From: an uncultured Planctomycetaceae bacterium
GTDB lineage: Bacteria > Planctomycetota > Planctomycetia > Gemmatales > Gemmataceae
Assembly (NCBI GenBank): GCA_937888715.1
Contig: CALARU010000126.1
Span: 1 to 63,662 of the forward strand
Direction: 5' to 3'
DNA: 63,662 nucleotides
The notes under the pieces were generated by a model, which saw nothing but the letters and a program-made list of their open reading frames with translations, was not told the origin of the DNA and ran no database searches. Shown one piece after another: positions 20,644-25,432 of the stretch. The position numbers and the translations under genes were made by a program. The first letter of the stretch is position 1, and each line of letters begins with the position of its first letter.

Positions 20644-21888
20644 TTAGTGGACGCCCATAAACCAAAGAGGCAGTGGCTGGATTCTATCTTGGTCGTAGGT
20701 GAACTTAGCAGGGAATCCGATTTGGTTGGCAGGGATATTTGGATTTCCTGTTTTGGGATCCAATGGGCCAAAAAACCAACTGTAGGAGGCATCTTCAATC
20801 CTTTTTCTACTAAAGGTGCGCAAGGTGTTTTCACCTTTTTTTGTCATTAGCATGACATAATTTTTGACAATATCATCGTTGGCTTCCTCTAATAACTTAC
20901 TTCCCACATTCTTAGATTTGTATTTGAATTCGCCTGTAAATTTTTGATCAGGCGAAGTGGAAGATTTTGCTTTCGGATCAGCTTTTTTCTCATCGCGTGT
21001 ATAACCACGCTTTACCCTCTTTAATAAATTCTGGGAAAAATCGTCCCTAGTTTTGTCGTCTGTGCCGGTTACAAATGCCATTTGCACCCTTCGAGTCCTA
21101 GGCATGGTGATATCCTTCAGCCAACTTTGAATTTGAGTGGAATAATTTTTGCCTGCAATGGTTGGACTGATAGAAAGCCAAATTGCTGCAAGTTGCGCAC
21201 TGCCCTCAGCATCTTCTGCTGCATTTGCTTTCAAATATATTTTTTTTGGTCCAACAGGTTTGAGATTTAATATTCCGCCATTTTGGGGTATATCCTCAAC
21301 AGTACAAGAAAGCCTGCGCCATTCGCTTGCCATCCACAGCGCCCCAAGAGTTGCGCCTTCACCTGCACCAATAACAATGATATTTGAACTGTTCGCGTCG
21401 CCATCATCATTTTTAATATCAAGGAAGGACTTGGCTGCAGCGATATCGTTGACAAGGTTTGGATAATAAGCAGTGGTAAATTCACTCGAGTTGATTTTGG
21501 CAGGTTTATTTTGCATTTTGGCGCCCGGCAAAACCAGGTTGTGTGGCTGTAGCCAGAAGTTTGGGGACACGCCAACACTCTTGCCATGCCCACGAAAATC
21601 AAAACTTAATACACTTTGGCCTGCGGCCTGAAGATCAAGCGCTAGTTTTTCCCAACCGTCTTGCGAACTATCGCCGCCTTTACGGTAAGTGAAATCGTGC
21701 AAAAGAATTATGGAAGCGCCATCTTTAGGCTTGGCGCTGGGGTAAAATTTCCCTGAGAGCAATACGCCATCATGAGTCCGAAAATTGATGGGTTCGCTTT
21801 CAGCCTTGGCTGAAGAAGGAACTGCTAACAAAGTCGAAAAGCTGATGAGTAGGGCTAGTGAACCAGCTTTAAATTTAAAGTGTGTCAT
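20644..21888 (-). CDS. Secreted alpha/beta-hydrolase-fold protein with Glu at nucleophile elbow
   Basis: About 414 residues from the ATG at 21888; a TTG at 21912 would add eight residues. A signal peptide ends near SSAKAES. The fold is indicated by NFRTHDGVLLSGKFYP, SIILLHDFTYRKGG, VLSFDFRGHGKS (oxyanion and substrate-loop region) and the strand before the elbow, NIIVIGAGEGATLGAL. In active hydrolases the elbow is G-x-S-x-G; here it is G-A-G-E-G, so the catalytic serine is replaced by glutamate. The protein is therefore either non-hydrolytic or uses different chemistry. The C-terminal 120 residues are lysine-rich and not assigned. It ends against a shared terminator. Confidence 0.8.
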   Translation of the reverse strand: MTHFKFKAGSLALLISFSTLLAVPSSAKAESEPINFRTHDGVLLSGKFYPSAKPKDGASIILLHDFTYRKGGDSSQDGWEKLALDLQAAGQSVLSFDFRGHGKSVGVSPNFWLQPHNLVLPGAKMQNKPAKINSSEFTTAYYPNLVNDIAAAKSFLDIKNDDGDANSSNIIVIGAGEGATLGALWMASEWRRLSCTVEDIPQNGGILNLKPVGPKKIYLKANAAEDAEGSAQLAAIWLSISPTIAGKNYSTQIQSWLKDITMPRTRRVQMAFVTGTDDKTRDDFSQNLLKRVKRGYTRDEKKADPKAKSSTSPDQKFTGEFKYKSKNVGSKLLEEANDDIVKNYVMLMTKKGENTLRTFSRKRIEDASYSWFFGPLDPKTGNPNIPANQIGFPAKFTYDQDRIQPLPLWFMGVH

Positions 21889-21989
21889 GTTTGTAACCTT
21901 GGTAATGGCCAAAATATTATCTACTTAAATATTCCATCTTCCGAAAGAACAGGCAAGAGAAAAGCGGTGTTTTAAAAGGAACTTGCGTA

Positions 21990-22039
21990 AAAAAACCGAT
22001 TATTCGCGAGCGAAGGGGTTTTCGCAGGCGCATAATCGG
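21990..22039 (-). terminator. Intrinsic terminator with long rod-like stem
   Basis: The outer stem CCGATTAT/ATAATCGG spans 21996-22003 and 22032-22039, continued by CGC/GCG and an inner GCGAA/TTCGC stem with small symmetric internal loops. On the minus strand it is followed by six T (21990-21995). It would end transcripts coming from spoVG or from the candidate RNA. Confidence 0.75.
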
Positions 22040-22330
22040 AATTTTAAGAAAGGTTCCCGGCCTTTCCAAAGCTAAACCCAGCCAGAATTCTCTGAAGGAG
22101 ATCATCCTGTTGTTCGTTATTTTCAGGTACGCCATTTCCCAGCAGGGCCAGCCAAACCAAACTGGCAATGATTCTCTTTTAGCAGAAAGAGCCATGAAGT
22201 TGATGCACCCCAAACTTCATGAACATTGCCCGACCCAGACCACTTTTGCTCCACCCTTTCTCAGAAGTGGCATGGGCCCTTTTCGAGTACCTTACCCGAA
22301 CCTCTCCTTGCAACTTGGTGCAAAGGTAAA
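21990..22330 (-). ncRNA. Candidate structured RNA downstream of spoVG (unrecognised family)
   Basis: No convincing gene fills the space between spoVG and the next leftward gene, but the sequence forms a series of nested perfect helices. Outer to inner, with plus-strand coordinates: 22322-22326/22061-22065 and 22315-22318/22066-22069; 22303-22309/22095-22101 (7 bp); 22287-22292/22125-22130 (6 bp); 22275-22280/22144-22149 (6 bp); a side hairpin 22265-22270/22240-22245; 22224-22230/22164-22170 (7 bp). The last encloses two hairpins, 22213-22221/22193-22201 (9 bp) and 22186-22191/22174-22179 (6 bp), as a three-way junction. On the minus strand it ends in a long hairpin followed by six T, which sets the strand. 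Sequence signatures of RNase P, SRP, 6S and tmRNA were looked for and not found. The 5' end is a guess. Confidence 0.5.
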
Positions 22331-22349: not shown

Positions 22350-22380
22350 GGGGTGCCTGACACTGTACGATTTACTGAAC
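22350..22380. repeat. Possible REP-like motif
   Basis: The segment around GTGCCTGACAC and GTACGATTTACT resembles, from memory, short repeats found scattered in many bacterial genomes. Only one copy was noticed in this window, so repeat status cannot be shown here. Confidence 0.2.
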
Positions 22381-22452
22381 TTAAAAGTTTTTTCGAAGAG
22401 GTTGTTAAAGCAGGGAAAATAGGAATTCGGGGAAGAGTTGTCGGAGTGATTT

Positions 22453-22950
22453 TTAGGTTGGGTCGCCGGTTTGGTAGCCACGAGTTTCTCTCGTTTTTTC
22501 GTCAGCGTAGCTCGCGGGTTCAAAATCATGATCAATGTCTTCATAATTGCAAACATAACCAGGCAATTTAGACTTTTCAACTTCAGCATGGAAAGAACTT
22601 AAGACAGATTGTTGAATGTTTTCCCTGCATTCAGGGTTGATGGGGTGTGCAATGTCTGCATGCATTTTCTGCTTGCCATTAGAGTCGCGTCCCATGCCCC
22701 TAAACTCTGCGAGTTTGCATCCGCATTGGTTGCAGAAACGGGCACGGAGTTGATTTTTGCCTGAACACTTGGTGCAGCGATCCATTAATTTACGGCTCGG
22801 CATAGCCACAAACCAACCCCGGGTGCCTTCAATGATTTTCAAGTCGCGGATGACAAAAGCATTGTCAAAGGTGATGGAGCAGAATGCTTGAAGTTTTTCG
22901 TTGTCGTTACCCGATTCCATGAGTTTGATTCGAACTTCCGTGATTTTCAC
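22453..22950 (-). CDS. spoVG: SpoVG-family RNA/DNA-binding regulator with zinc-ribbon insertion
   Basis: 165 residues, starting at GTG 22950 behind a clear GGAG. The SpoVG core is at the N-terminus (MKITEVRIKLM, AFCSITFDNAFVIRDLKIIEG, GWFVAMPSRK) and resumes after an insertion at HADIAHPINPECR. Between them, C59-x2-C62 and C73-x2-C76 form a rubredoxin-like zinc ribbon that is absent from Firmicute SpoVG (about 85-100 residues), and the C-terminus carries a further acidic tail. SpoVG proteins bind nucleic acids and are reported as post-transcriptional regulators in Firmicutes and spirochetes. The gene follows ispE by 11 bp in one operon, a linkage similar to the ispE...spoVG region of Bacillus. 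The candidate structured RNA lies just downstream. Confidence 0.93.
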   Translation of the reverse strand: MKITEVRIKLMESGNDNEKLQAFCSITFDNAFVIRDLKIIEGTRGWFVAMPSRKLMDRCTKCSGKNQLRARFCNQCGCKLAEFRGMGRDSNGKQKMHADIAHPINPECRENIQQSVLSSFHAEVEKSKLPGYVCNYEDIDHDFEPASYADEKTRETRGYQTGDPT

Positions 22951-25038: not shown

Positions 25039-25429
25039 GGGGGCGATCCGGTTTCGACCGGGCTTACGGAAATGCAGGTTGCGTGCCGTGGTTGATCAGA
25101 TGGCCACGTAAATATCTGATCAAACTTAACTGCAGAACCGCAGTTTTCTATGGCTGCTTAATAATATAGCAGTCGCGCGTCTGAGAGCTTAGCCAGAGAG
25201 GTTTTAGCGCGCTAGTTAAATCTGGATCGTGGGGGTTAGAAGTCACGCAAGTGGCTGATACTGAGGGCAACCCCTGCTAGACTTTACACTCGGTTAGCTT
25301 GAAGTGGCTTTGCAATTTGAATCCACCAGAGTGAACGCGGCAGAGTAAGACTGCCAAATCAGTTTGCTACGCACGTAGACGCCGGCATGGAAGGGCTTCG
25401 GGACCGGGGTTCAATTCCCCGCGCCTCCA
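25039..25429 (+). ncRNA. ssrA: tmRNA (transfer-messenger RNA)
   Basis: The 5' end GGGGGCGATCCGGTTTCGAC and the 3' tRNA-like end GGGTTCAATTCCCCGCGCCTCC pair as an alanine-tRNA-like acceptor stem of 7 bp that includes the G3-U identity pair. The tag reading frame begins at GCA 25132 and runs to TAA 25159-25161, followed by a second TAA. It encodes AEPQFSMAA, added after the charged alanine. The AA end is the usual protease degron. Encoded bases after the discriminator are CTA, so CCA must be added after transcription. tmRNA with SmpB rescues stalled ribosomes. The tag resembles the AEPQYSLAA type I recall from Gemmata. Confidence 0.97.
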
Positions 25430-25432
25430 CTA

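Follow-up and report, generated by a model that had tools for sequence, protein, structure and literature searches.

A conserved structured RNA downstream of spoVG in freshwater Gemmataceae

The spoVG locus and its features

The window, a stretch of 63,662 nt, is contig C126 of a Gemmataceae genome of 4.56 Mb. On its minus strand lie, in this order, a gene for a BD-FAE-like esterase, ispE, spoVG, the RNA stretch considered here and a hydrolase-like gene, beyond which a TIM-barrel gene is found. The entire block, from the BD-FAE gene to the TIM-barrel gene, is collinear in Gemmataceae bacterium Baikal-deep-G161. In that genome an integrase-like ORF (L068:7856-9163) resides past the BD-FAE gene, near the place that the tmRNA gene has in the window.

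The RNA begins about 110 nt past the spoVG stop codon, on the same strand, and roughly 75-105 nt separate its terminator from the hydrolase-like gene, which is always 3' of the RNA (8/8 genomes). The gap between spoVG and the RNA is poorly conserved, except for one upstream element. The features are listed below in the direction of the minus strand. "Both-sided change" refers to pairs in which both nucleotides differ among homologues and pairing is retained.

22453..22950, minus strand: spoVG, upstream neighbor, outside the RNA (Pfam SpoVG, E 3.9e-27)
22362..22382, minus strand: upstream element AAGTTCANTNAANCGTACAGT, found in 7/7 genus members amid diverged DNA, and in Baikal-deep-G161
21989..22328, minus strand: structured RNA, modeled extent, ~340 nt (models R1/R2/R3, eight genomes, covariation)
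22306..22326, minus strand: P1 hairpin, 22319-22326 with 22306-22312; both-sided change in two pairs
22301..22309, minus strand: AAGGAGAGG (AAGGATAGG in G001 and G004), the best-conserved run between both genera in the alignments
22282..22300, minus strand: P2 hairpin, 22294-22300 with 22282-22288, conserved GG in the loop; both-sided change in two pairs
22232..22278, minus strand: P3/P3b, 22274-22278/22232-22236 and 22266-22271/22238-22244; both-sided change in five pairs
22165..22229, minus strand: P4 three-way junction, closing helix 22224-22229/22165-22170; both-sided change in 15 of 22 pairs; present in the minimum-free-energy (MFE) structure of the Baikal-deep-G161 copy
22213-22222/22192-22201, minus strand: P4a hairpin of the P4 junction
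22207..22211, minus strand: P4a loop GGGGU, 5' side of the putative loop-loop contact
22186-22191/22174-22179, minus strand: P4b hairpin of the P4 junction, conserved loop CUGCU
22081..22143, minus strand: P5-P6-P7 arm, 22137-22143/22081-22087, 22130-22133/22097-22100 and 22124-22127/22106-22109; both-sided change in five pairs
22047..22067, minus strand: P8 hairpin, 22061-22067 with 22047-22053, loop with conserved GGGAA; both-sided change in three pairs
21989..22039, minus strand: terminator hairpin T (22021-22039/21996-22014) and U tract; both-sided change in 7 of 16 pairs
22015..22019, minus strand: terminator loop ACCCC, 3' side of the putative loop-loop contact
about 21920-21970, minus strand: conserved promoter-like block, CTTTTCTCTTGCCTGTTC...AATATT (TTGCCT..AATATT), kept to Baikal-deep-G161
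20644..21912, minus strand: hydrolase-like gene, downstream neighbor, outside the RNA (no Pfam match)

The Pfam match of SpoVG covers residues 1-121, and the profile has 82 positions. The protein contains a zinc-ribbon-like CxxC...CxxC stretch that recurs in the three homologues inspected over their whole length (G004, G005 and G034). One relative, G001, carries two spoVG copies (L070 on G001:C172 and L071 on G001:C103), both located at, or close to, the end of a contig, which probably reflects a strain mixture in this metagenome-assembled genome (MAG). The hydrolase-like protein shows alpha/beta-hydrolase-like motifs despite the lack of a Pfam match, and has relatives in other planctomycetes at about 30-42% identity.

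A preliminary description, made from the letters of the window alone, had placed a possible undescribed structured RNA at 21990-22330 of the minus strand and had seen no credible gene there. Indels of 1 and 4 nt among relatives disrupt every frame within this stretch, and no ORF is conserved, which rules out a conserved protein. The AAGGAGAGG run is Shine-Dalgarno-like, yet no conserved start codon follows it. A small ORF behind this run was rejected, because its ATG is present in only part of the genus and its frames are broken.

Homologues and conserved helices

Within the genus (UBA969-like Gemmataceae), a 441-base query matched all seven genomes; none of the 92 other relatives searched gave a hit. 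Relatives recognized by protein search are freshwater MAGs that include UBA969. The RNA is single-copy in each of the seven genus genomes. A profile built from the seven genus copies revealed one further copy, in Baikal-deep-G161 (G034), directly after spoVG and 48-53% identical to the genus RNAs. The RNA lies between spoVG and the hydrolase-like gene in 8/8 genomes.

Two covariance models, R1 for the 5' domain and R3 for the 3' domain, were trained without the Baikal-deep-G161 copy and nonetheless match it. R1 scores 36.7 bits (E 1.4e-7 per genome), and R3 scores 43.8 bits (E 4.6e-10), a value to which the palindromic terminator contributes, giving 20-33 bits on the opposite strand as well. 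A third model (R2), with the Baikal-deep-G161 copy in its training set, recovered the same eight copies and no others from 397 genomes of the class; the filters were stricter in this search and lost weak matches, so that absence elsewhere means absence at the given sensitivity. R2 found no match at 22 spoVG loci in other Gemmataceae genera, the sequences preceding hydrolase relatives of other genera likewise gave no match to the RNA, and a pattern scan of IMG/VR was negative. At the search sensitivity used, the RNA appears to be confined to two related genera of freshwater planctomycetes.

The consensus comprises 12 modeled helices with 85 pairs, of which 39 show both-sided change (controls, 1-5 per domain). 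The 5' domain contributes 24 of its 47 pairs, compared with a shuffle mean of 5.4 and 2-3 in slid controls, and the 3' domain 15 of 38, compared with 2.4 and 1-3, respectively. Covariation is present in every modeled helix, and even in the weakest, P7, 90.6% of cells are paired. Because six of the eight sequences are at least 90% identical, most of this covariation reflects the differences of G004 and Baikal-deep-G161 from the rest.

Alignments of the Baikal-deep-G161 copy were fitted to the model structures, and are therefore biased toward them. The MFE structure of this RNA folded alone, a check that is independent of the alignment fit, includes 71 of 75 projected pairs. In the unfitted seven-sequence alignment, RNAalifold detected both-sided change at 12 pairs. 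A full-length MAFFT alignment with the distant copy misaligned the junction and was excluded from the counts. Both the minus and the plus strand fold with energies below those of shuffles, at z = -2.2 and z = -3.2, respectively; energy alone decides nothing, because the plus strand of self-complementary DNA also folds better than shuffles.

Compensatory changes beyond controls mark this as a conserved structured RNA that is apparently non-coding. Together with the homologues, the covariation in every modeled helix and the absence from Rfam, they strongly support the earlier proposal of an undescribed structured RNA. Evolution has kept its folded shape, rather than its letters.

The complementary segments on which that proposal was based are exact in the window, and part of the proposed fold survives comparison. 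The junction's closing helix (22224-22230/22164-22170) and its two hairpins are present with compensatory changes in 7/7 genus members, and also in Baikal-deep-G161. The minus-strand terminator is likewise real and supported by covariation. By contrast, of the three outer helices, 22303-22309/22095-22101 is intact in the window's genome alone, and 22287-22292/22125-22130 and 22275-22280/22144-22149 are intact there and in the sister genome G003. In every other relative they have one to four broken pairs, without compensation. In the comparative model, their 5' segments fall within P1, the linker from P1 to P2, P2 and P3, and their 3' segments within the P5-P7 arm, which also holds a conserved internal-loop run, UUCRGAGAA. 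The conserved element is thus a chain of domains, not the single nested rod first drawn. An RNA of this kind can be recognized by reading raw sequence, although here the outer part of the fold, deduced from a single sequence, was wrong.

A putative loop-loop contact

The G-rich loop of P4a and the C-rich loop of the terminator are complementary as GGGGN/NCCCC in 8/8 copies. No other five-pair helix can form in all eight copies from unpaired columns outside the U tract. When eight wrong pairing rules were applied instead, no helix reached five pairs, and no helix showed changes on both sides. At the variable position, four copies have C-G, two have U-A, one has U-G and one has A-U. The comparative case rests on this one position and its several changes, because the other four pairs do not vary and are uninformative about covariation. 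We therefore regard the contact as likely, not certain; it could form within one molecule or between two. If the P4a loop does pair with the terminator loop, the terminator would also contribute to the architecture of the mature RNA.

Such contacts are known in other structured RNAs. Kissing loops and homo-oligomers have been shown by cryo-EM for OLE, ROOL and GOLLD (PMC12286853). The RNA described here resembles these three in being an apparently autonomous structured RNA with conserved helices and a predicted loop-loop contact. In contrast, it is shorter (~340 nt), has another layout, lacks an Rfam match and is found in two genera only. It may be regarded as new at the family level and of a known kind, the large structured bacterial RNAs. 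More tentatively, it could represent a new class of autonomous, tertiary-folded RNA of two related freshwater planctomycete genera, with a terminator that is structural through the loop-loop contact; that contact may join two copies into a small homo-oligomer.

Possible function and alternative explanations

We consider it reasonably probable that the locus is a single-copy gene for an autonomous, compactly folded, minus-strand RNA of ~340 nt that acts in trans. The homologues, helices, loop-loop complementarity and restricted distribution are results of computation; transcription, trans action, and a partner and target are inferred. Transcription would probably start at the conserved element at 22382-22362 and would end at the intrinsic terminator at 22039-21989. 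The 5' domain consists of P1, P2, P3 and the P4 junction, and the 3' domain of the P5-P7 arm and P8; pairing of the P4a and terminator loops would join the two domains. The RNA would most likely act in trans, either by forming the core of an RNA-protein particle or by regulating targets independently of Hfq. In the latter role, its C-rich terminator loop could be exposed to G-rich (Shine-Dalgarno-like) targets.

Element AAGTTCANTNAANCGTACAGT probably serves the RNA gene as its promoter or as a site for a regulator. It contains TACAGT, which could be a -10 box; no good -35 box is recognizable at the element. The 5' end of the RNA may lie nearer 22355 than modeled. A role of the element as a genome-wide operator was rejected, because the window's genome holds one copy.

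The foremost alternative, which we judge improbable but worth serious attention, is that the RNA is a cis-regulatory leader, a riboswitch or attenuator, that toggles the terminator in front of the hydrolase-like gene starting at 21912. The invariable position of this gene 3' of the RNA and the strong terminator between them are as expected of a leader. However, candidate antiterminators, that is, upstream duplexes with the terminator 5' arm, are no better than those in shuffles in 8/8 copies, and a transcription-attenuating riboswitch was rejected because no alternative pairing to the terminator is conserved. Moreover, the block at about 21920-21970, 3' of the terminator, is probably the hydrolase-like gene's own promoter, the terminator loop appears to be engaged in the fold, and relatives of the hydrolase elsewhere lack the RNA. 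The upstream element, the promoter-like block of the hydrolase-like gene and the lack of an alternative partner for the terminator arm thus favor an independent RNA over an attenuator. The conserved synteny with the hydrolase-like gene is also compatible with a cis role.

Somewhat less probable still is an origin from spoVG mRNA, with the stretch as its 3' untranslated region or as an RNA processed from it, possibly bound by SpoVG. The shared strand and the short distance from the spoVG stop codon would suit this arrangement, and in Listeria, SpoVG binds RNAs, including Rli31 through its apical loop (PMC4959528). Rli31, reported as one long 5' hairpin and a terminator, has no structural likeness to the RNA studied here. 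The gap between spoVG and the RNA, which diverges save for the upstream element, and the 22 spoVG loci of other genera at which R2 found no RNA argue against a common transcript. The preliminary description took the adjacency as a hint of SpoVG binding; because the whole gene block is inherited, the position gives this idea no support.

It seems quite unlikely that the RNA belongs, in highly diverged form, to a known family (RNase P, 6S or SRP RNA, tmRNA or a described bacterial motif), even though its size and complexity suit a housekeeping-type RNA. The preliminary description had seen no sequence motif of the four named RNAs; none of them matches the stretch, and genuine copies are present elsewhere in the genome. 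RNase P RNA (RF00010; G000:C312:91563-91971, 266.6 bits), 6S RNA (RF00013; G000:C318, 67.9 bits) and SRP RNA (RF00169; G000:C286, 44.8 bits) are on other contigs, with scores above the cut-offs, and the tmRNA gene, as noted earlier, is in the window, at 25039-25432. For this stretch of the window and for two relatives, Rfam 15 gave no family at its gathering score, and a permissive search returned only chance-level matches (for example, to snoRNA and miRNA families). No description of the RNA was found in the open-licence papers searched. Finally, several of the helices first proposed are chance matches and the folding energy is only moderately below that of shuffles, yet chance complementarity in AT-rich intergenic DNA, with no functional RNA, is scarcely credible given covariation in all helices, covariance-model matches to a 50%-identical homologue and the preserved loop-loop pairing.

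The observations on promoters, antiterminators and SpoVG, and those on CsrA and Hfq that follow, led us to choose a trans-acting structured RNA. CsrB and RsmZ are sponges for CsrA with many loop GGA motifs. The host genomes encode CsrA (three to four copies), and a GGA in the P8 hairpin loop is kept in 8/8 RNAs. Unlike CsrB and RsmZ, the RNA has no array of loop GGA motifs; a single fully unpaired GGA is common to all eight copies, and a CsrA-sequestering role was therefore rejected.

Hfq was not found in the six genomes tested. RNAIII of Staphylococcus aureus is an Hfq-independent regulatory RNA with C-rich loops, and sX13 of Xanthomonas is reportedly another. The terminator loop is likewise C-rich and able to pair with G-rich ribosome-binding sites; it differs from theirs in having a conserved partner within the same RNA. 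To our knowledge, structured RNAs of Planctomycetota are little described. If our preferred reading of a trans-acting RNA is correct, the locus would add a new family to the large structured RNAs of bacteria, from a lineage in which Hfq has not been detected, and would offer a defined fold, a predicted loop-loop contact, a clear phylogenetic range and comparative evidence. Typical antisense sRNAs have far less conserved structure than this RNA.
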